Positions 3,063 to 59,760 of a stretch of DNA of 64,000 nt are shown here, in pieces (the first letter of the stretch is position 1; each line of letters starts with the position of its first letter). The stretch is from Albula goreensis (lineage: Eukaryota > Chordata > Actinopteri > Albuliformes > Albulidae), in the NCBI GenBank assembly GCA_022829145.1, contig CM040748.1, positions 1,783,501 through 1,847,500 on the forward strand, read 5' to 3'. The notes below the pieces were generated by a model, which was not told the DNA's origin, did no database searches, and worked only from the letters and a program-made list of their open reading frames with translations. Made by a program: the position numbers and the translations under genes.

Positions 3063-3085
3063 TTGGTTTGGGGGTGTGATCGTAC

Positions 3086-3508
3086 CTGCCTGCCGGAATC
3101 GCTTGATAAGGCTCTCCCTGACGCCTCGCTGCAGGTTGAAGTAGTCGTCCTCCTCGTCTGGGGTGCGCAGGTACAGCGGAATGTGCTGGAAGATGAGGGT
3201 GTGTCGGCGGGGGCTCCGGGCCGCGGCCTGCAACTGCTCCTCCAGCCACGCCTCCTGTGCGTCCCGCAGCTCAGGGCATGCCGACGCGTCGAAGAACAGC
3301 TGTGAGTTCAGCACCAGGCACCGCACCCCCCCCACCCAGAAGCTGAAGTAGTCATCGCCCCACCCTCGGCGGTACAGCTCCACCGTGTCTGGCGTCGGGG
3401 TGTTTCCCAGGTCGTGGTTCCCGCTGACAAACACGAGCGGGATGGCAGGATCCGTACCCCTCAGAGCCTCCTTCAGGTCCCTCTCCTGCTCTGCCCGGGA
3501 CGGCGTTC
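3086..3508 (-). CDS. CPPED1: CPPED1 exon 3, central metallophosphoesterase region
   Basis: A 423-base exon with acceptor TTTGGCAG (AG at 3510-3509) and donor GTACGA (3085-3084), phase 1 at both ends. It encodes about residues 95-236. Visible landmarks in order: the GNHD metal-binding motif (residues 124-127) inside LVFVSGNHDLGNTPT; WGDDYFSFWVGG (144-155), a signature of this family; LVLNSQLF (159-166); and QHIPL (202-206) with its metal-ligand histidine. It ends ...KRFRQAG. The family's next segment, which carries the final GHYH-type metal motif and roughly the last 75-80 residues, is not found in 1-3085 on the minus strand and is inferred to lie left of the window. The exon is distinctly GC-rich compared with its introns. 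The reading frame has no stop or frameshift. Confidence 0.95.
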
Positions 3509-5380
3509 CTGCCAAACAAACAGCCGCACATCAGGACTCTTCCAAAACAGGAACAGTTTAGCTGAGAATCCTTTTATTCTGCCAGCCATTAAACCCAACA
3601 TTAATGTGGAGGACGATCAGGTCAATATCCATTTGTTTTAATGTAACTGTAACCAAGTGACTGAGTCTCTAGTGCTGTCACACACCTGCTGTCAAGCCCA
3701 ATCTTATGTCACTGACAATAACAGTTTATAACTTTTTTCCCCTCTTATATAAGATTCATTATTATCTACCCTATGCAGAAAAGCCTCCAGTCACTTACAG
3801 ACCAAACGCAGAATGTACCCGTGGTACACCTGGGAATGCAATTCTGCAGCATGTCCACGGACCCAAACGCGTTTTCACTGATAAAAACTCAGGGCTCATT
3901 AAATTTTTACCGCGTAAACATGAGCAGACTTGAGATTGCAGATATAATGTGATCTGGCAGATACATCATCAAAAGCAGAGAAACGCCTCGCTCCACGGCT
4001 CAGATTACGCTTCAGAGCCGACCTGTCAATCACTGATGTGCATACAGGATGCATGTTGTGTGACACACTGAGTTATGGACTCTGATTGGGCATTGGGGCC
4101 CCTTCCCTGCACTTTTTCAATAAAGGATGAGACCGGAGGTGAGGGGGCAATTTTCTGCGCTCAGAGGGGACTGGGATCGTATAAAGTGCGTGTTACAAGG
4201 TTAAAGAAAGACCACAAATCATCGGAATGACAGCTCCCGTCGTGTGAGCGAAGCCGTCGCCGTTTTAATGCAGCTTTTCAGCATCTGCGGTGACAAAGAA
4301 ATCACCGCGATTCATACCCTACCGCGCTTTTATTAGCCACGGCAGAGCGCGGGCGGGGGGGCACCATCTGTGGCCGCGCCGTCCAGAACATAGCATGGAC
4401 CTACAATGATTTTTAGAGGGGGTGGGGGCAGAAAGAGAGAAAGACACACAAAAAGAGAGAGAGAGAAAGAGAATGAGAGTAAGAGAAACACCTGGGCCAC
4501 CAGGATAGAATCGAAGCGTTCCATCACAGAACCAATTCCAGCAAAAAAGAATTAAATGAAATGATAAGGATCAGATATCCAGGGGTTGGAGTAGGCTGGG
4601 AGGGGATGGGAAGAGTCAGGCTTTGGGAGTTTAAGAAGCGTTGGCCGTTATGTTTTACTAACAGCTCTGTTCAAACTCCCGACCTCCAGCAGGACAGGAG
4701 GACTGAGAGAGGCAGAGTTTCACTCGCCCTCGTTCTCCAGTGGGGAGGCAACACGCTTAGTGTTTTATTTCTGTACTGACAAACAAAACATATCACACAC
4801 CCATAGACTGGACAATCTCTATCAATTACGATCCAGTCAGAGGGTGAAGAAAATATTCCAAAAAATAATGTTTATTTTACAGTAAACTTCAGAAAAAAAC
4901 TTAAGAAAAAAGGTGTACCCAGCTCAGCTAAAATCAGAAACCAGGTCTCATCTCAATGTCTGTTACTGAGAATACCAACTCTCCCTTACCCCCTCCCCCA
5001 TCCAAATCATAAAACACACTCCATCAAATTATTATAAATCTTTAGACAAACAGACGGACTGAGGAGTTAGAAAAGTCTGATTACAAAGTGAACAGTATTC
5101 AAATTAAACCCAGGAAAAAATAGACACTGAACAAATAGGAGAAAAGAGAATCAATCCTAAAATAACATTCCTCTCTGGCCCGGCTGACACTTAAATGGCA
5201 GTTACATTTTGAATTTTTGAATCAGTGAAGTAACAGCCTTTGTCGGTCTTTAACATGCCAGACGGGGAGTCTAGCTGCCTAACGCAGATGAAGCCTAACG
5301 CAGTCTGTTGAAAGAACCGCAAATGAAAGTGATGTGGAGAACGTCAGGAAAAAAGGACAATGGGTAAATAAGACAAAATT

Positions 5381-14742: not shown

Positions 14743-15774
14743 GCGTGACCCAAGAAGGAGACACTGCGTGACCCAGGAAGGGGACACTGCGTGACCCAGG
14801 AAGGGGACACTGCGTGACCCAGGAAGGGGACACTGCGTGACCCAAGAAGGAAGACACTGCGTGACCCACCCAGGAAGGAGACACTGCGTGACCCAGGAAG
14901 GGGACACTGCGTGACCCAGGAAGGGACACTGCGTGACCCAGGAAGGAGACACTGCGTGACCCAGGAAGGAGACACTGCGTGACCCAGGAAGGAGACACTG
15001 CGTGACCCAGGAAGGAGACACTGCGTGACCCAGGAAAGAGACACTGCGTGACCCAGGAAGGAGACACTGCGTGACCCAGGAAGGAGACACTGCATGACCC
15101 AGGAAGGAGACACTGCGTGACCCAGGAAGGAGACACTGCGTGACCCAGGAAGGAGACACTGCGTGACCCAGGAAAGAGACACTGCGTGACCCAGGAAGGA
15201 CCCAGAGACACTGCGTGACCCAGGAAGGAGACACTGACCCAGGAAGGAGACACTGCGTGACCCAGGAAGGAGACACTGCATGACCCAGGAAGGGACACTG
15301 CATGACCAGGAAGGAGACAGGGAAGGAGACACTGCATGACCCAGGAAGGAGACACTGCGTGACCCAGGAAGGAGAGACACTGCGTGACCCAGGAAGGACA
15401 CTGCATGACACTGCGTGACCCAGGAAGGAGACACTGCATGACCTGCAGGGAAGGAGACACTGTGTGACCCAGGAAGGAGACACTGTGTGACCCAGGAAGG
15501 AGACACTGAGACACTGCGTGACCCAGGAAGGAAGGAGACACTGCGTGACCCAGGAAGGAGACACTGACCAAGAAAGGGACACTGCATGACCCAGGAAAGG
15601 GACACTGCATGACCCAGGAAAGGGACACTGCATGACCCAGGAAGGAGACACTGCGTGACCCAGGAAGGAGACACTGCATGACCCAGGAAGGAGACACTGC
15701 GTGACCCAGGAAGGAGACACTGCATGACCCAGGAAGGAGACACTGCGTGACCCAGGAAGGAGACACTGCATGAC
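14743..15774. repeat. 23-bp minisatellite, about 44 units
   Basis: Tandem array built from CACTGCGTGACCCAGGAAGG plus AGA (23 bases). Units vary by substitutions (GCGTGA/GCATGA/TGTGA, GGAGA/GGGGA/GAAAGAGA) and by many small insertions, deletions and truncated units. Because 23 is not a multiple of three and the unit lacks stop codons on the minus strand, all three minus-strand frames stay open for about 1.07 kb (354, 357 and 361 codons). These are not credible genes: no two units are kept in one frame and the translations are the same peptide in rotating frames. The array sits in CPPED1 intron 2, in the sense orientation of that transcript. Confidence 0.95.
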
Positions 15775-20610: not shown

Positions 20611-22772
20611 ACACATGCCACAGCCTCTGCGTGTATTGTGACTGTTTATATATCAAGTCAAATAACGGACTGCTTATTGCTACGTAATCTTTGTGCTAAC
20701 CAGCTGAAGGTGTTAATTGCTTACTGTTATGATATTTACAGATTCAGTAAGCACTACTTCAGTAAATATCCCTCTATATGGTTCATCTTATATTTGGTAC
20801 GTGTTTTTATTTTTATACCATAATGTTTAACTATAAGCAAACTGTAAGCCCTTTCACAGATGCAGCCTCTCGTTTCTTAAATAACACACCAGAATCTGTT
20901 TGTAAGAGCTGGACATTATGAGCTCTCACCCACTCTGTCGAAGCCGAGCATTTTAAAACACCGGACCTACTGAGCACAGATTACAGGACCGATAAATTGG
21001 TGAAGTTGGGATCAGTATAGCTGCTCTGTTTCTGCTCTCCTTTGTTTCTCAAGCCTCCTGGACCATATCTGTAAAGGTGTCCTGGATTTTGATAGGATGA
21101 GACCCAGCCTAGTCCTGCCCAGGTAGACTGCTGAGAAACATCCTCGCAGACAGGAGAGCTTTGAAGATTTTACGCCGAGTTGAGGGATCCGGTCAGATCC
21201 TCGAACAGGGAGGTACCCTGAGCCTCGGCACACATCTTCACTCAACGTATGGACCCATCGCTGGGCCGGAGTCATCCTGCCACCATTAAGAGCCAGTCCA
21301 TTATCCCCTATGCGTCTGTGTCTGAGATGTGCTTTTCTCTGCCCTCATATTTTCCCAAGCTTTACGCTCGATTGCCTAGTAAAACAGGTCAGGGAATTCA
21401 TTTCCACTTTTTCATGACCCGATTTGGCTGGGTTTTTGTCTGTTTTTATGATGCCCTCTGGAAAATGTCCATTATGAAACTTCGTAAGACTGTCTTTAAA
21501 TGAAGCTGAACAACAGTAGTACGTATTTATTGATTATTTCAAGGCCGTGCAGTCCACAAACCATCGCACAACTCAGCAACACAACAGCGTTTTGCTCCTT
21601 GCGCGCTCTCAGTTATTTTCTCTGCATTGGTATGAAGTGATGAAGTTAGCGCTGGTTCAGACCACATGGGGAAAAAATGGACACATACATTAACACATTA
21701 CTGTTTCCTTTTTTGTATAAGCATGATTTTTTTTACTGAACACTGCTCGGAGATATGGTCATTGCAAACATGATTAAAGTTTGTTTCTGAAATCGAATTG
21801 GTAAACTTTGTAATTTTGTGCAGAGGAAAATGTAATTATCTGTACAAGTAAACCTTGTATTCCCAGCGTAGCGCAGCAGAGGAGCTGAAAGTGAGAATGT
21901 CTCCACTAGGTCCTCCTGGTACTCTCCCCTTAGGTTTCCTGATGGCATTGAGTTAGCAAAGCTAGTGGCTTTATCAGACCCCATACATTCACTTCACAGA
22001 CATAATCCCAGTATACTTACTGTGCATTCACCTGCTCTTTCTGGGTTCTTCTCACACCATGTCTGAGTTTATGTCATGCTTCTGTTTAAGAGCTATATGC
22101 CTGTCTGTCTGTTCATGGACTATTTGTCTGGTAGCTCATGTGTTTATTTGTAATCTGTTCATGTAATTATTTGTCCACACAGGCTGTAGGGTTGGGCATC
22201 CGACTGGGAGCAGTTTTAAAAGCAGAGTTGGTGATCTGATGAATCACGATTGATGAATTAATCATCAAATTAATTAGTTATTTGTGATTGAGTTTTAGGG
22301 AGCATTCATTAATAAAACATCTTTGAACAAATGCTTAAATGCCAAATATCATTGTGCATAATAACCATAAAAACATTAAAGAAGAACTAAAGTTGTCAAG
22401 ATGTGTAGCCCTTGCTGTATCCAAACACACCACTGAAATGCCTTTGTTTAATTGCTAGTGATAAGTTCTGCAGTCCCACAGGAGATATATCTGTTCTGAT
22501 ATACAACGATTTATTCTTTCTACCTGGCATTTTAGGTAAATAAATTATCAAGCGGGGAAAACTTTAACAGCTTTTAACGACTTTAAACTTTAACTATGTC
22601 CTAAAAGAATTACAGGATGTTAAATATATTATATTTCTGTCACAGTCAGCAGACTTTACTTTTGGTTATTAAACATTGATGGCAGGACATGAAAAATGGA
22701 AAAGGAATACAGAGACCTGCGGACAGCAGGTGAATGCACAGATCAAAGAGAGCCTCGGCAGGTGTGGCTTAC

Positions 22773-22991
22773 CTGGCATGGCGTGCACCAGGTCCCCACA
22801 CAGCACCATGAACCGAGGCCTGGGGCTCAACTTATTCAGCGCCTGCACGGCCTGCCTGGTGAGGCGGACCTCGTCCTCCCACTCGTCCCCTCCGCCGTCA
22901 CAGTCGCCCACCCTCCAGGCCTTCATCAGGCCCAGCTGGGGGTCCGCCGCCTGGATGAAGTAGAACGGCCCCGTCCACTCCCCCTCTCTGT
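22773..22991 (-). CDS. CPPED1: CPPED1 exon 2, first half of the metallophosphoesterase fold
   Basis: A 219-base exon bounded by a C/T-rich acceptor ending CCATAG (acceptor AG at 22993-22992) and a GTAAGC donor (22772-22771). It starts and ends in phase 1. It encodes about residues 22-95, including [19 protein letters not shown] and [17 protein letters not shown]. Metal-binding motifs of calcineurin-like phosphoesterases are present: ADPQ (D38, in place of the usual D-x-H) and GDLVH (residues 87-91). The human protein, recalled from memory, has near-identical blocks at these points. CPPED1 is described as a Ser/Thr phosphatase that acts on AKT and affects glucose uptake; that role comes from the family, not from this sequence. 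The exon ends in HAMPG, and its split glycine codon is completed by exon 3. Confidence 0.95.
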
Positions 22992-25900
22992 CTATGGGGG
23001 GATGGGGGAACGAGAGAGGGAGAACGTGAATGACAAGCTCTCCCTGCAAACAAACCATGTGAATTATTTACATCCTGTCGATGAACGCTGAGGCATGCAC
23101 AATGAAATGTTTTTACGTAATCTTACATTATGTAACGCCTCAGATGCAATCAGATTACTTTTTAATTCTCATGAAGGGAACATATACTCGTTTGAATTTA
23201 CAAAATCAAATGCAGAGCCACTGATCTCAGCGTGTCAGAGGATGACATGTACAACTTGAAAAGGAATCAAACTGCAGGCCCGCTGAAGTGGATTCCCCTT
23301 GTTGCTTGCTAACAGGCAGCAGTGACTGGTTCCTCCTCATGTTTCTCCTGCTATTGTGGAGAGCAGCGCTCTGGGAGCTACTTGCAGAGCTACTCGCAGA
23401 GCTACTCACTTCTGTCCTCGGGCTCCGAGCTGCATCTCCCCTCACCTCGTCCCTTGAGCTTTCCGCTCAACTGCCTCTCAAATGTTTAACATGCGGCCTA
23501 TGCCTCCCGCTCTGGTGGGGTTATGGTAATTCTTTACTCACACACACAATCTTTCAAAAAGGAAGTGTGTGGGGGCAGAGAGAGATCCCCGCAACTGGGA
23601 ATTCCCTAACAAGTTCTTGACTCTGCAATTATCGTCTCTGAAATGAAGAGGGAATCTTTCCGCTTGGATGCTAATCAGACGGAAAAAAACGGGATCTCTC
23701 TTCTCACATAAGACCTGCTAACGCCTACGTGCTAAAATTGCGTTGCTTGTTTGGTCTTCACTGTATCGTTAAGGCAGTATGTTTCTGTTTTATACAGTCT
23801 GCCCAACATTCATTAGTGGAAAAGCTCCCCGCTCTGCAGTTTTAAATGGGTTCTCTCGGCAGACTATTACATTTAGCAAGAAGATAAAATTGTCCATGTC
23901 AAAACACAAAAAAATGAGCTCAGCAACAGCTGTTAAATGGAAACCTGCTTAACCCCCCACCACCACCCAAACCAAATTCAATAAATCAAAATAATTCAGT
24001 AGGACATGGTATCACAAAGAGACATGAGAGAGGTAGTATGTCAGGATTTCAGAACTAGAGAAGAAAATGTGAAAATCTGTCACACAGCTATTGGAGATAC
24101 TGGAACAATGTCTGAAAATGTGTTTTCCATATCCATCAGCGAGGCATGAGAAATGAACGACCCCTTGGACCGACACAGCCACATCACTCCCCACAATAAG
24201 GCCGCACGCCACAGCACATGCAAGCAGTACAGTCAGAAGACATTGGCCAAACACCCAATTATATTATATTATTTATGTTTTTTTCCACCTTTTGGTGTTT
24301 GGACATTGCTTCAGAGTGTTCCTACAGTGGATATTTCCCTTCTCTAAAAATCCGATAGTGGCTTTTAGTTTTCCTTACAGTCCTCTAGAGCTGTTATATT
24401 TCAGCATTTAGCAGATGCTCTCATCCAGAGCAACTTACAAAAGTGCATTCAATAAGCTAAAACAACTAGCCAAGAAGATACAAAAACCATCACTTCATAG
24501 TTATCACACTAATCTACAGAATATCCTTAAGTGCCCTTAGTAGGTGCTTGTGGGAAAAACAGCTGCCTTTGTTTGAGTGGATATTGAGACGAAAATGAAA
24601 ACATATATTCAGAGTTTGGGGTCAGATGGGACAAGAGGCAGAAGTAAGGCAGAATAAGAGAAGTACATGAGGAAAGACAAACAGCATCCAGAACTGTGAA
24701 ATGATGAATTTATAATTATGGTTTATATTATATCATGATCATACTATGCTATATTTAATTATGTAATATCTCAGTATTCCAGGATGTAAACATTTTACTC
24801 TTTACATCAAAATGTCCACTACTAATGCAGACCAAAGTTCTCCTACATTCACATTGTCATTACTGATTACCATCGCGATCCTGAATTACATAGCTGCTTA
24901 GCGTCAGATATGTTCAGCTTTAACAGTTTTTCAGGTCACAGCTCATTCCTCAAGCTTTCAGCTGGAACTTCTCGCACCATCTGAAGTCTTGGGTTTTGTT
25001 GTTCTGAACAAACTTTACAGAAACATCCCGGGAGGATATGTGAACTATTTTCTCATAACTTGAAAAAGCAGAATGGAAAAGAATGGCCAATGCTCCCCTG
25101 ACAGCTGAGTGTAAATAAAAGCAGCTCTCTACGGCTGCGCCCAGCCAACTACAGACACAAATCAGACACATCTCTCAGGTGACAGATGGTGCTTTCAAAC
25201 AATGCAGACCATTACTCAGAATGAAAGCATGCACCACTGAAATAATTATATATTTATACAACTTTTTCAAATTTTCGCTTGATTAGGCCTCTTCAAAATC
25301 TGCTAGTGGTAATGAAAGACGAAAGGGGGAAAACTAATTACTCCAGTTGAAGAAGCACACATGTTCCAAATGATTCACAAGTAACCAAATACAAATGCCA
25401 ACTAGCTCATTTTCTGCTCAGTCTATACTGCAGTTGTGTTAACCTATGGTCATACTCAAAAGGTAGGCATATGCTACAGAAGAAATAACAAGACATCCTT
25501 ATACTACAGCTTATTTTATCTCATCATTTTTATTTTTATGGCTGAGCTTTCCAAACAGAGACCTTAGCCTCACAAATCAGGAAGCACCAAGTCACTCAAC
25601 CACATGATTCACCTGGAAGCTGAAGGTGTGTAAAAGACCAGATGATACTTTAAGAAAAGTGATTAAGAAAAGTATACCAGAGGCACTTCACCCTCAACGC
25701 CAGGTCACACCATCACATCTGAAGTCACAAAAAAGTATCTTGTTGAATTCTATGTGTTTATCTCAAGCCTCTGAATTGTAACAACTACATAAACGTTGTC
25801 ATGATTATGTAAAAAATAGCACAGCCTAATCCATTTAAACATTAAATGCCATTAAGGCAACCTGTTAAGCAAAGGTTAGTTTACACCTCTATCGCAAAGC

Positions 25901-34281: not shown

Positions 34282-34799
34282 ATGAGAAACACTGGTTTGC
34301 TGCTGGGTTACTTTTTGGTCGAAGTTCTGGCGCTGGTGTGCAACGCAGAGGGTGAAATCGGACAGCAGCCGGATGGCTTCGTCATGGTTTCGGGGTCCAA
34401 CGGATCTAGAGAAGGGGAGAATGTGTTTTCAGAATCCCCACACTTAGAAGACAGATGTCGGGGATACTACGACGTGATGGGCCAATGGGATCCACCGTTT
34501 GTGTGCAAAACTGGCAAATATTTATACTGCTGCGGGACCTGTGGCTTTCGGTTTTGTTGCGCGTTTAAGAGCTCGCGTTTGGATCAGAGCACCTGTAACA
34601 ACTACGACACTCCTGTATGGATGATGACTGGTCAAACCCCATTCAAGAAAAATGACCCCAGGCACGATCCCACCAAGGATAAAACTAACTTGATCGTTTA
34701 TATCATTTGTGGAGTAGTGGCTATTATGGCACTGGTTGGGATATTCACGAAGCTAGGGCTAGAGAAGGCACATCGACCTCAGAGGGAAAACATGTCCAG
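34282..34799 (+). CDS. shisa9: SHISA9 (CKAMP44) exon 1: signal peptide, cysteine-rich ectodomain, membrane segment
   Basis: Encodes 172 full codons plus two bases of the next, ending ATGTCCAG before a GTAGGT donor. Residues 1-22 form a signal peptide (MRNTGLLLGYFLVEVLALVC). An N-glycosylation sequon NGS lies at 40-42. The Shisa cysteine block spans 59-105 with eight cysteines (59, 75, 83, 84, 87, 92, 93, 105) within CRGYYDVMGQWDPPF and CCGTCGFRFCC. A proline- and charge-rich linker includes HDPTKDKTN. One membrane helix covers about 137-155 (LIVYIICGVVAIMALVGIF), followed by a juxtamembrane TKLGLEKAHRPQRE. An upstream in-frame ATG at 34204 would add 26 residues before the signal peptide; 34282 is preferred because it places the signal peptide at the N-terminus and has A at -3. 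SHISA9 binds AMPA receptors at synapses and modulates desensitisation (family knowledge). Teleosts carry two copies; I cannot tell which this is. Confidence 0.96.
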
Positions 34800-37379
34800 G
34801 TAGGTCTGAGCTCCGATCCTGTCCCTCCTGTCGGTCAGCTCTCCACGCTGCTCACCTGCTTCTGAAGGAACGCAGCGCAGATCTACTGTATCTCGAGGGG
34901 GAATGAGAACAAAGTTATCGCTGATAAGATCAACAGCTACGGTGTCCAAAGGACGATTACAAAAACATTAAGCATGTGTACACTTTCCAGCGTAAAAATC
35001 TGGGGCAGTTTTGAAGTGCTTTCTGATATACGTCATATTTAATTCTGTATGACTGTAATAGATGGTTAATTTCATACACCGTCTTGTTGAAAACACAATA
35101 TTGTAATTATGTACTTTATTTCAAGCAAAATAGAAAGAATTACAATTAAATGCAACGAAAAGTAGTGGTGCACTCGTGTGGCTTATACAAGTAATCGCCA
35201 ACAGGTAGAAAAAGCCCTTTCTTCATCTCAGTCTTCTTTAAGTGCGGCTCCGAGATGGAATGTAAATCTGTGAATCCTCAGGTCCAATCCAAAGGTAGAC
35301 GAGAACACCACGCTGTAAGTGCAGACGATGCAAAGATCATCTGCTGTTATCACTGACACAAGGGTTTCATATTTTTACCTACCAAATATCAGTAAAAATG
35401 TAAACGTTTCTGATTAGACCATTAAAAAGACATCCACAAGCAATGCACCAGGAGAATGAACTTTTTCCCGCCCTCTTCAACCGCCAGGCATCTCTGTCTC
35501 ACTGGCACACAATATTAACCAACTCTAATTATCGAGTCCAGTGTCTGTTTCGTATCTTAAAATTGCGATGTCTAGATATAGGTTAAAATTAGTAATGTAC
35601 ATTATGCCAGCATAATATGTTGAATTTAGATTATAATCACAGCACAGCACTTCCCACGGACTGATCTGATCGCGTAATGATGTATTTTATATTCTTATTG
35701 CTCTTAGACTTTAGCAGTACTGTACTGTTAATTCGGAATGTAAGGGAGTACAGCGATAGAGACTGAGTCATTGGTCGACTATAGCTTTGGCCACATGGTT
35801 GAATGGTTCCAGTCTCTAAATGATGTCCTCTAAAAATGAACACGACCCTCTCAAATTTCGTAACATTATTGGAATTTATTACTGTTATTGAGTCATTATT
35901 TTAATCTCATGGGATGCTAATACCATCTCAGGCACAACTACTAACTAACTAGTTACAATAAGGACACTAATCGCATCATAATCATCATATTGGCTAAGTA
36001 TGGTTGAAATGTGATTCTTTATTGTTCAAAAACATTATAATTGTCGATGGAGTCTGTAAAATGAAACTTAGATTCACTCAGTTGTGTAACTCTTGTACAA
36101 TCGTCTGATAACATTATTGCAGAAAAATATTAGACATAGTCTATATTGTACCTTCTTTTGTTCTACGTTCTTAAAAATGTCAGGTGCCTTTTGACTACGC
36201 AGCGCATCCAAACGCGCTTTCAGCACATGCCAGTCGACCCTCAGATGATATTGCAGCAACGTTTCCGACTCACGTTCAGAAAACATGGAAACGCTCTGTC
36301 GGGTCTGGTTAAAATGGGACTCTCTGAATTAATTCTGCCTCTCTCAGAATGCAACATCAGACTGTGACATTGTTACAGAAAACAGAAACGTTTAGATTCT
36401 GTAACTCCTTCTGTCGAACAGTCTTTGAGCATGATTGAAACGTATCACGTGATTTGGTAGATTATGGATTATCGATTCCTTTGAGGATTGAGTCCTCTGT
36501 GGGAAACAGAAACTTCCCGGCTCCCCTTGCGTATTCTTAGTCAGAGGTTTGCATGTGTGAATTCATCAACTGGAGACAAAAGTGCTCTGAAACCAACTTC
36601 CTCCCAAATCAAGCTCATATACAATATTAGGAACATATATTTCTTTTTAAAAATGAAAAAATATCCAGTTCAAAATAAAGTGAGTTAATGATGTATGTTT
36701 TGTGAGACTTAGGCTATTGTAGGGGCTTTCGTGGTATGCTTTTCTTACATTGCGATCAAGTTGCATTGTATTCTGGTTGAAACCACAAGGAAATGATACA
36801 CGAAACCATTGATTTTTCAGAAATGAGTCGCGTTTTAACATGAACTATATCGGTCAAAACATTTTCTGAGAAGAACCACCATTTCACAATCGACACTGGA
36901 GTCGAGGATCACCACCTGTCCACCTGGAAATCGGTACGGTTCTGCATCCCCCAGACCGCTCCGCCCAACTTTCTTCCAGTACCACACGCACACATATTCA
37001 CACAAATGCACGCCATAGTCTTCAACACACGACTACAATGCCACGGTAGCACTACTTGAAAGCTGAATGAAAAGTACAGGGAAATACTCATCTGTTGCAA
37101 CGGTTAACTGAAAGAAATGCCCAGACCAATTTCTGTATTTGGTTTTCGCTTCTGTTGGCTCACTCTTGCCTTCTGGATAACGGTGTTATTTCATAATGTT
37201 TTGCAAACTGTGCGGTTAAAACAATTGACTTAAAATGTCTGTTGTTTGTCGTTTTAATTTATGAATAATTTGTCTGGCGCTCTTGGACACGACATGCGCA
37301 TTCAAACGAATCTTCAGAGCGTGTCAGTCGACCCTCATAGCAGCTGTTGACCTCTTTGTTTTTGAATAGAGATGAAAAT

Positions 37380-37413: not shown

Positions 37414-39540
37414 TAGCCTGTACCCGCACAGGAAGACGTTTTCACTTATTGATGGAACTCAATTTTTTTGCAGATCTAGATATTCCTTTTTTAAATTTAA
37501 AATTAATTAATTAACTTACATTGGTTACGTTTTCATTTACTCTCTCATTTATAAGCCTTTTCATCCAAACTACATTTGGTGGTTTTGAATTCCATGACCA
37601 ACCATCCAGCACATACTTGTTGTATAAATTTTACCAGCGGGGGCGCTCTTGAGCTCACATGTTGAAGGGCGTCACTGAGGCTCTCGCCTTGCCCCAACCT
37701 GCTAAATTTTCCTCAACATTTACATGCAGATTTCACTTGAGGGAATCCATTTTGGCACTTTTGTGCACCATTTTAGGAGCGAGTCCAATGCGTTAATAAG
37801 CCGTGTGAAGCTCATTACACACCCCCTCTATGCTTGGTTTTCTCCCGGGTCTGGGTCCACTGAGTGCAGTCTTTGGAGCTATGTATGACCCACAATTCAC
37901 TGCAAATTCCCATGATTCTGTTTAATGGGAAAAACTAATAGGGTCATTGTTGATAAAACATTTTGTATCTCTGCCTCCGCCAAAGATCAGAATCCTTTAA
38001 ATCCTTGAAGACTTTTGCTACGTCACGTTGTTAGCAGAATTATGTGAAATCTGCGCAGATTAATGCTGTTACAGGAACAGTAGCACTGGGCACAATGTGA
38101 CTAGAAGGACATTTTTCTGCTTTATTCTTCCATCACACTCTTGCTGGACATGGCATCTGAGTTTAGTAAATAACAGAGATAACACAGACACACCCACGCA
38201 GGCTGTTTGGATTTACGCACCAGTTTTCTCTCATCATCCACCAAGAAGTTAATGGCTGGGATTCAATGAAATGAACTTATTCTGTTTCAGGGATTACCCA
38301 AAACAGACTTAAGTCTCATATGGTGTTCCATTTTAGAATAAAAAGATCACACTTTCAAAGGATATTTTGCTTGTCTCCAGTAAAATAGAACACCCTCAAA
38401 GAAACTTCTGTTGAAGTGTAAAGAGTGTTTTGCTTGAATTGCCCTTTAAGCGAAAATGTGTGTTCTATTGGCTCCTAGCCAATATGCCAAATTAGTTGTT
38501 TAGTTCTTGAGATCAGAGAAGTTGCCAAATCCATAAGGAACAGTCATTAATACTATGCGTGCTAGATAATGTACCATTGAGAAGGGCCACTTAGGATACC
38601 CAGAATGCTCTCTGGTCTGTGCTGGAGCAGCGGTGTGTGTTTCATGCTCTGTCACAGTGTTAGCCATTACTGAGAATGCACAGGACACAGTCACTTCTCA
38701 CAGTATCATCATCAAAAGTACACACTTATGATTCACAAAACCATGCCATTATTATGAATGACACCAATATGTAAACACATTTAATCTGCTTATATATGAC
38801 AAATAATAAATTGCTCCGTACTCTCTATCTGTTGAAGGCCAGACTATGGCCAGGTGTAGCAGCGGAATCTAATACCATGGAAATATCATTTTATGCATTG
38901 CTTTCATCACATGCAAATGGGAAACACGCCATAGTGGTCTGTATCAGGGTCTTTGACTACGAGGCTGGATAACTTTCTCCTGTTTGCTTGTGGGTATCCC
39001 CGGACAGCGGTGCATTGCATGTTTTACTCTCACAGTTAATATTGATGCATTACCCACACTTTATTTCATTTCACCTTGGGACCAATAGTACTCACTGTAA
39101 TAAATACTTGAGGAGAACATTATATATTTATATATATATTTTTTTTTCCTGGCTCATTGCTTGGAGGAATTAATGCAGGAGTGAAATCTTCTGTTGATGT
39201 CTGTAGCTGTGGTGTGAGAGGAAGTGGGGGCTGGGTTCCAGGCCACCCCCCCACAGCGCTGACAGCACTGCTGTATCTCTCACCTGCTCCATAACTTCAG
39301 CCTGTTGTGTCGCCCCTGCAGTTATGATTAGTGAGAGATTAGCAGTGGCCTGCCCTCTCTGCTCTGTGTGGCAGCCTGTATCAGGGCAGAAGGGATTCAG
39401 CCTGGGGCTGAAAGAGTTTCGGTGCTTTGTGTGCTTATTCCTGTTAGTCTGGACTTTTATACTGATCCTGAAGTTTTTGTGTCATCTTTGTAAAACACAA
39501 TGTGATGTATGCATGAAGAGCGCTACATAAGAGGTTCTTG

Positions 39541-39851
39541 TATTGTAGTTTAGTGTATTGTATTGTATTTTAATGTATTGTATTGTAGTGTAGGGTAGTG
39601 TATTGTATTTTAATGTATTGTATTGTAGTGTAGGGTAGTGTATTATATTTTAATGTATTGTATTGTAGTGTAGGGTAGTGTATTGTATTTTAATGTATTG
39701 TATTGTAGTGTAGGGTAGTGTATTGTATTTTAATGTATTGTATTGTAGTGTAGGGTAGTGTAGTGTATTGTATTTTAATGTATTGTATTGTAGTGTAGGG
39801 TAGTGTATTGTATTTTAATGTATTGTATTGTAGTGTAGGGTAGTGTATTGT
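39541..39851. repeat. 40-bp AT-rich minisatellite, about 8 units
   Basis: Units are built from TATTGTATTTTAATGTATTG then TATTGTAGTGTAGGGTAGTG (40 bases). Copies are almost identical; one carries a 5-base TAGTG insertion near 39760. The array ends 229 bases before the SHISA9 exon 2 acceptor. Minus-strand open frames over it are artefacts. Confidence 0.92.
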
Positions 39852-40080
39852 GGCATAGTACTGATGCAAAATCACTGCTTTTGAATCCATAATACGCAGG
39901 AGCGTGTAAAAGGTAAATATCAGATAAGAAGCAAATGTTATAAACTGCCTTATTTTTCTTAGCATATATAAAATGCGATGGGGTTTTGCTGTTGCAGGTT
40001 CTGTATAATTCATGGGATATATTTTTTAAATGAAGTTGTAGGCACGTGGTTGACTCACCGAATGACTGGCGTTTTTGCAG

Positions 40081-40207
40081 GGCTCTTGCGAATGTGATGC
40101 GCCAGCAGGGTCCATGTCCCGGGAGCACCTGGAACGGGAGGACAGCCTGGGCCTGCACGTCCAGCACTACGAGAACATGCAAGGCAGAGCCAAGGCCAAC
40201 AACCTGC
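40081..40207 (+). CDS. shisa9: SHISA9 exon 2, start of cytoplasmic tail, with apparent one-base frame break
   Basis: A 127-base exon between acceptor GTTTTTGCAG and donor GTAAGT. Spliced in phase after exon 1 it continues MSR-ALANVMRQQGPC, the expected tail sequence, as far as about 40117. Beyond that, the expected homology (EHLERED, HVQHYENM, then NNL) is found only in the frame one base earlier (codon starts at 40117, 40120 and so on). Between the last residue matching in the first frame and the conserved VQHYENM there are 41 bases, where the human protein as I recall it has 14 codons (42 bases). One base therefore appears to be missing near 40117-40122, at a CCCGGG run. Taken literally, the annotated frame stays open to the donor but encodes an unrelated tail. 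With one base restored, the exon would be 128 bases and end in phase 1 after NNL, as I expect for the family. A sequencing or assembly slip is the simplest reading. Confidence 0.88.
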
Positions 40208-57882: not shown

Positions 57883-59242
57883 TTTCACCCACACCGTGAC
57901 ATGAGGAAGAGGAGGTCTTCACCCTCACTGTGACATGAGGAAGAAGAGGTCTGTACCCACACCATGACATAAGGAAAGAGAGGTCTTCACCCTCACTGTG
58001 ACATGAGGAAGAAGAGGTCTGTACCCACACCATGACATAAGGAAAGAGAGGTCTTCACCCTCACTGTGACATGAGGAAGAAGAGGTCTGTACCCACACCA
58101 TGACATAAGGAAAGAGAGGTCTTCACCCTCACTGTGACATGAGGAAGAAGAGGTCTGTACCCACACCATGACATAAGGAAAGAGAGGTCTTCACCCTCAC
58201 TGTGACATGAGGAAGGAGAGGTCTTCACCCTCACTGTGACATGAGGAAGAGGAGGTCTTCACCCTCACTGTGACATGAGGAAGAAGAGGTCTGTACCCAC
58301 ACCATGACATGAGGAAGAGGAGGTCTTCACCCTCACTGTGATATGAGGAAGAGGAGGGCTTCACCCACACCGTGACATGAGGAAGGAGAGGTCTTCACCC
58401 TCACTGTGACATGAGGAAGAGGAGGTCTTCACCCTCACTGTGACATGAGGAAGAGGAGGTCTTCACCCTCACTGTGACATGAGGAAGAGGAGGTCTTCAC
58501 CCTCACTGTGACATGAGGAAGGAGAGGTCTTCACCCTCACTGTGACATGAGGAAGAAGAGGTCTGTACCCACACCATGACATGAGGAAGAGGAGGTCTTC
58601 ACCCTCACTGTGATATGAGGAAGAGGAGGTCTTCACCCACACCGTGACATGAGGAAGGAGAGGTCTTCACCCTCACTGTGACTTGAGGAAGAGGAGGTCT
58701 TCACCCTCACCTTGACATGAGGAAGAGGAGGTCTTCACCCTCACTGTGACATGAGGAAGAAGAGGTCTGTACCCACACCATGACATGAGGAAGGAGAGGT
58801 CTTCACCCTCACTGTGACATGAGGAAGAGGAGGTCTTCACCCTCACCGTGACATGAGGAAGAGGAGGTCTTCACCCTCACTGTGACATGAGGAAGAGGTG
58901 GTCTTCACCCTCACCGTGACATGAGGAAGAGGAGGTCTTCACCCTCACTGTGACATGAGGAAGAGGTGGTCTTCACCCTCACTGTGACATGAGGAAGAAG
59001 AGGTCTTCACCCTCACTGTGACATGAGGAAGAGGAGGTCTTCACCCTCACTGTGACATGAGGAAGAGGTGGTCTTCACCCTCACCGTGACATGAGGAAGA
59101 GGAGGTCTTCACCCTCACTGTGACATGAGGAAGAGGAGGTCTTCACCCTCACTGTGACATGAGGAAGAGGAGGTCTTCACCCTCACTGTGACATGAGGAA
59201 GGAGAGGTCTTCACCCTCACTGTGACATGAGGAAGAAGAGGT
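57883..59242. repeat. 34-bp minisatellite B, exactly 40 units with higher-order structure
   Basis: 1,360 bases = 40 x 34 with no insertion or deletion: unit ends fall exactly at 58222 (10th), 58562 (20th), 58902 (30th) and 59242 (40th). The main unit is CTTCACCCTCACTGTGACAT then GAGGAAGAGGAGGT. Units 2-9 alternate strictly with a second type (CTGTACCCACACCATGACAT, then AAGGAAAGAGAGGT), giving four copies of a 68-bp dimer. Units 12-15 and 20-23 repeat the same order of variants, including a rare GATATG change in units 14 and 22, implying a duplicated block of 8 units (272 bp). Its start is 0.4 kb from array A. Confidence 0.97.
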
Positions 59243-59760
59243 CTTCACATCCTGGATGTCCCGTTCCTCCTATTTTTAGCAACATTTCTGTGAATATGAA
59301 AGTCCCGCGTGAATGAAGAATCACTCAGGGTGTTATTATTTTACTCCCAATGTATAATATGTATCGTTAATATGCAGGAGGAAATAAAAGTACATCCTGT
59401 TGATAAGACTATAATAGACATGGCTGGAGACAACCTTATTCCAGTATTTTCCTACTGTATTAGTAAGGAAGTGCGTAAAGTAAGGCAGTATTGTAGATTA
59501 ACATTAAAAAAAATCCCTTGGAATCTTGTCATGTGCACTTTTATATCTGTAAAGGTGTATGGTCATAATATTTAATGTGGTAAATGATACATGCTGACTT
59601 TATTGTGGGACTCTGCCCAAATGGAAACGTTGGCTCCAGGCCCTTGCTATATCGGGGGGTTTTTGGTGTATTTCTGGCTGTGGGTGGAGCTCCTCAGGGG
59701 TATGACAGCCCTGGTGGAGGCCACGGTCCCCTCAGACAGGTGTGTGCCGTGACTCGGGCT

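Follow-up and report, generated by a model that had tools for sequence, protein, structure and literature searches.

Exon 2 of the SHISA9 (CKAMP44) gene is one base short as assembled in the window analysed here, a stretch of 64,000 nucleotides (C8:1783501-1847500) from an assembly of 932 Mb in 208 contigs: its 127 nt are one base fewer than the reading frame of the neighbouring exons requires. The feature itself is unremarkable: a conserved gene with a frame break of one base. Among single causes of the deficit, we regard a consensus base error as the likeliest, with the gene intact in the fish, and give this reading about an even chance. The main relevance is for annotation, where automatic prediction would cut short or omit exon 2 in a conserved synaptic gene; a real deletion would mean that a vertebrate has naturally lost the SHISA9 tail.

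The frame break in exon 2

Exon 2 is flanked by the acceptor TTTTTGCAG and the donor GTAAGT. It was compared with human SHISA9 and with another shisa9 copy, located on contig C22, and divides as follows:

40081..40207, forward strand: SHISA9 exon 2, one base short (alignments to human SHISA9 and to the C22 copy; splicing)
40082..40117, forward strand: start of exon 2, 12 codons in the spliced frame, ALANVMRQQGPC (frame-shift-aware alignment; 8/11 identical to the C22 copy by BLASTN)
40118..40123, forward strand: CCCGGG, site of the reading-frame break (frame-shift-aware alignment; BLASTN gap against the C22 copy)
40120..40206, forward strand: remainder of exon 2, REHLEREDSLGLHVQHYENMQGRAKANNL, family-like only in the earlier frame (tblastn, frame-shift-aware alignment, BLASTN against the C22 copy)

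Splicing exon 1 (34282-34799, 518 nt) to exon 2 gives R-ALANVMRQQGPC, followed by PGSTWNGR..., which departs from the family sequence; the latter is present in exon 2 of the window only in the frame one base earlier. In a frame-shift-aware alignment to human SHISA9, a path with one break (penalty 15) scores 114, compared to 96 for the unbroken path, and the maximum among 298 random stretches of the window, which served as a control for the score of 114, is 34. GC content by codon position changes accordingly: past the break, it is 21, 8 and 26 (of 29) in the earlier frame versus 9, 27 and 22 (of 30) in the spliced frame.

The copy on C22, a further reference taken from this genome itself and presumed to be an ohnolog of the window copy, is 80% identical to it in exon 1. 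Its exon 2 (L034 3774-3895, 122 nt) reads as ALASVMQQQMPGSRDGLEREVTVGAQGGHYESMQARASSL in one uninterrupted frame and shares its splice phases with exon 2 of the window; its length leaves a remainder of 2 modulo 3, where the 127 nt of the window leave 1. A BLASTN alignment of the two exons (113 columns, 77 identical) contains a sole gap, which lies in the window copy at CCCGG-GAG; MAFFT places this gap four bases further on and finds six more bases (two codons) missing from C22. The C22 exon is thus two codons shorter than that of the window, more diverged, and carries GGHYESM in place of VQHYENM.

The original prediction, which read the first 12 codons in the spliced frame and the remainder one base earlier, is confirmed by alignment, GC content and the C22 copy. 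Its location for the break also holds, at about 40118-40123 by alignment to human SHISA9: the best frame-shift-aware alignment places the frame change at 40118, and the BLASTN gap falls there as well. Searched by sequence only, exon 2 had no useful match in PDB or Pfam, and the literature searched contained no mention of VQHYENM or shisa9a. A bacterial promoter and terminator scan across the exon was empty and is uninformative here.

The gene around the break

Judged by an exon-by-exon match to human SHISA9 (a comparison that covered SHISA9 and no other family member) and by CPPED1 exons upstream, the window appears to hold the first half of a fish SHISA9 gene that is otherwise complete and adjoins CPPED1. 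The exons follow the order of the human protein, and human SHISA9 likewise adjoins CPPED1. The remaining exons considered are:

34282..34799, forward strand: SHISA9 exon 1 coding part, 518 nt, open, with signal peptide, Shisa_N cystine knot, transmembrane span and start of the AMPA-receptor-binding stretch (Pfam, tblastn)
L004 3838-3993 (C8 1871138-1871293): SHISA9 exon 3, open (match to human SHISA9, splice signals)
L005 713-1107 (C8 1877913-1878307): SHISA9 last exon, open, ending in NSKTEVTV and a stop (match to human SHISA9, splice signals)
22765..22998, reverse strand: CPPED1 exon, open, local control (tblastn against human CPPED1, 57/78 identical; no Pfam match)
3084..3515, reverse strand: CPPED1 exon, open, local control (tblastn against human CPPED1, 83/145 identical, one in-frame gap; Pfam Metallophos 20.4 bits, cut-off 21.5)

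Exon 1 matches Shisa_N in Pfam (62.1 bits, cut-off 22; 5.2e-17), is identical to human SHISA9 at 90 of 115 positions (tblastn) and ends in the donor GTAGGT. It carries the membrane span, which like the signal peptide was assigned by eye, and the conserved stretch of ~20 residues after it (NLIVYIICGVVAIMALVGIFTKLGLEKAHRPQRENMSR). A PDB search with exon 1 returned shisa-3 (E 7.5e-07) and two weak matches, and peptide patterns taken from this exon had no match among viral contigs.

A search with the human protein detected no SHISA9 exons beyond exon 2 inside the window. The assembly carries exon 3 and the last exon 47 and 54 kb downstream; both were found when 200 kb of C8 downstream of the window were searched with the same protein, their ends being set by eye from splice signals. 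Introns 2 and 3 measure 47,430 and 6,619 nt, and six of six splice signals (GT-AG) are intact. Exons 1, 3 and 4 (1069 nt) contain no frame break; all four assembled exons total 1196 nt (remainder 2 modulo 3), and one disabling change is found across these coding bases. In common with SHISA9/CKAMP44, a member of the AMPA-receptor auxiliary subunits Shisa6-9, the gene has a cystine knot, a membrane span, the conserved stretch after the span and, at the end of its last exon, EVTV (a PDZ type II motif); it differs in the base lacking from exon 2 as assembled, which leaves the EVTV tail out of frame with exon 1. CKAMP44 is described as having a short alternatively spliced exon 4 of 16 residues (PMC6470934).

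In the C22 copy, exons 1, 2 and last are open, the last ending in EVTV. Between the two copies, exon 1 has a dN of 0.113 and a dS of 1.80 (an average over both lineages), and the remainder of exon 2, taken in the family frame, has a dN/dS of 0.32/1.08 (27 codons); both dS values exceed 1, and the low exon 1 ratio is blind to recent loss. As far as substitution rates can tell, this shows strong constraint on exon 1 and purifying selection also on the exon 2 remainder in the family frame. HVQHYENM, as found in human SHISA9, is kept by the window copy and not by the C22 copy, and the window copy is therefore less likely to be the dispensable one of the two.

Consensus error or deletion

If the consensus lost one base of exon 2, the DNA of the fish would be intact, and the gene would encode the usual single-span AMPA-receptor auxiliary protein with a PDZ tail. 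Several observations argue for such an error: the intact exons 1, 3 and 4, the six splice signals, the EVTV end, purifying selection on exon 1 and the exon 2 remainder, the retention of HVQHYENM, and other frame breaks in the assembly. Against it stand the seemingly good base-level quality, as judged from protocadherin exons, and the composition of the site: no run at the break exceeds three bases, and the window has C and G runs in numbers near expectation under a simple Markov model (C4 89 vs 107 expected, G3 372 vs 440, G4 112 vs 105). By the same model, A6 (30 vs 48), T6 (19 vs 42) and T7 (6 vs 14) runs are fewer than expected, a deficit which may hint at bases lost in runs; taken as a sign of the sequencing method, the homopolymer counts give no clear direction. 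Searches with exon 2 and its flanks for another copy or haplotig yielded no match beyond 25 bases within the window, and a genome-wide search for a second haplotype found one place only, but also failed to show the diverged C22 copy.

Clustered protocadherin exons are ~2.4 kb long and undivided, and the open frames found at Cadherin_2 matches agree with this. The control comprises 150 listed matches, 150 of 200 candidates having been scored, and takes as its criterion a frame that stays open for at least 765 codons. Among the matches listed, this length is reached by 51/55 exons on C6, 54/91 on C2 and 4/4 on C5, C18 and C23 together. Four of the 41 shorter exons were read, three from C6 (which has four) and one from C2 (which has 37): L037 and L040 have one frame change each, L039 has one in-frame stop, and L038 several breaks. 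L037 and L040 share with SHISA9 exon 2 a single frame change in an otherwise open exon, but they belong to tandem gene clusters, where real pseudogenes are also expected. One frame break in ~134 kb on C6 translates into a chance of ~0.009 per 1196-nt gene, or ~280 genes affected if the genome is assumed to have 25,000, each of 1.5 kb; counting all four short C6 exons raises the chance to 0.035 and the C2 count, which probably includes real pseudogenes, to 0.18, all of these among the matches listed and from a control that mixes consensus errors with real pseudogenes and alleles. A break of this sort is rare per gene, yet expected many times per genome. Locally, 666 nt of CPPED1 exons and the 1069 nt of the other SHISA9 exons are without a break. 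As a side observation, the protocadherin cluster at C2:628126-1105048, with 37/91 matches listed below 765 codons compared to 4/55 on C6, is either pseudogene-rich or poorly assembled; the 91 include one open copy beyond the cluster range, at 1120670.

A true one-base deletion, i.e., a recent null or truncating allele of the window shisa9 that is segregating or fixed, is a serious contender, to which we assign a little less than an even chance. Such a loss must be recent, because the other exons, the splice signals and EVTV are intact, exon 1 is constrained, HVQHYENM is kept and a second lesion is absent. The C6 protocadherin control favours good base quality and thereby a deletion in the DNA, and each human genome is reported to carry about 50 to 280 frameshifting indels (PMC3334572), so that such alleles are common. 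The C22 copy could also buffer the loss, as judged from its exons 1, 2 and last only. On the other hand, the strong constraint on exon 1 and the absence of a second disabling change across 1196 coding bases speak against a deletion.

Translation of the spliced exons reaches its first stop at codon 220, which starts at base 13 of exon 3. Nonsense-mediated decay follows a 50-55 nt rule, and since the stop lies 144 nt ahead of the last junction, the assembled transcript is predicted to be subject to decay. A product surviving decay would be 219 residues long, retaining the cystine knot and the membrane span together with the 20 residues past it (the receptor-binding stretch), and would lack the PDZ tail. 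According to a review, CKAMP44 no longer binds AMPA receptors once these 20 residues are deleted, whereas a protein stripped of the tail beyond them binds and modulates the receptors as before; PDZ binding is ascribed to EVTV (PMC6470934). A real deletion would therefore split gating from anchoring, if protein is made. That this amounts to a division of labour between the duplicates, in which a natural tail-less CKAMP44 escapes decay and gates AMPA receptors without PDZ anchoring, and the C22 copy supplies the anchored form, is a speculation that we hold to be very improbable.

The original prediction had set a base error beside a genuinely altered or pseudogenised paralogue with a changed cytoplasmic tail. 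Error and altered copy both hold as leading readings, whereas the paralogue part is weakened: an old pseudogene, or a neofunctional paralogue whose tail has changed, is very unlikely. The spliced frame has no stop through exon 2 and stays open for another 114 bases into the intron, and the genome has a second shisa9, as this scenario would have it. However, the new frame is closed by the stop in exon 3, the two downstream exons retain the family frame and EVTV, and the C22 copy lacks the break; intact splice signals, the substitution rates of exon 1 and the kept HVQHYENM point the same way. A decayed gene would have lost constraint or gathered several disabling changes, and one change was found; an anciently altered or decayed paralogue is thus not supported by these comparisons.

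Recovery of the frame in a living gene, by another splice site (an outcome named in the original prediction), a micro-exon or ribosomal frameshifting, is less probable still. Of 308 donor-acceptor pairs scanned (donors 34600-34899, acceptors 39950-40169), 92 enter the earlier frame, and 28 of these yield it without a stop. However, each of the 28 has its donor at 34767 or earlier, cuts away AHRPQRENMS or more from the end of exon 1 and leaves ALANVMRQQGPC unread, so that none of the 308 recovers the frame with the conserved parts intact. Any frame change upstream of exon 2, be it a splice site or an intron 1 micro-exon, would cost 12 conserved codons. Programmed -1 frameshifting was rejected, as exons 1 and 2 contain no canonical heptamer X XXY YYZ when read in the spliced frame.

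Neighbouring features

The two CPPED1 exons are oriented head to head with the SHISA9 gene. A conserved final part of CPPED1 did not turn up within the window, and eight other open reading frames of the window and one CPPED1 exon piece had no match in Pfam. Intron 1 of SHISA9 contains a tandem array close to exon 2:

39538..39851, no strand: 40-base tandem array, 7.7 copies, ending 229 bases before exon 2

The window has many further tandem arrays, of which those at 14743-15774 and 57884-59248 are the largest. A UnaL2 LINE 3' element (Rfam, 55.6 bits, cut-off 55) lies at 24398-24451 on the reverse strand. Elsewhere, at L018 5036-5608 on the reverse strand, an open frame with VAEMHGELIEFNERLYRSLMAKDHLITQMRQELIDLRGPV resembles an SNX29 exon.
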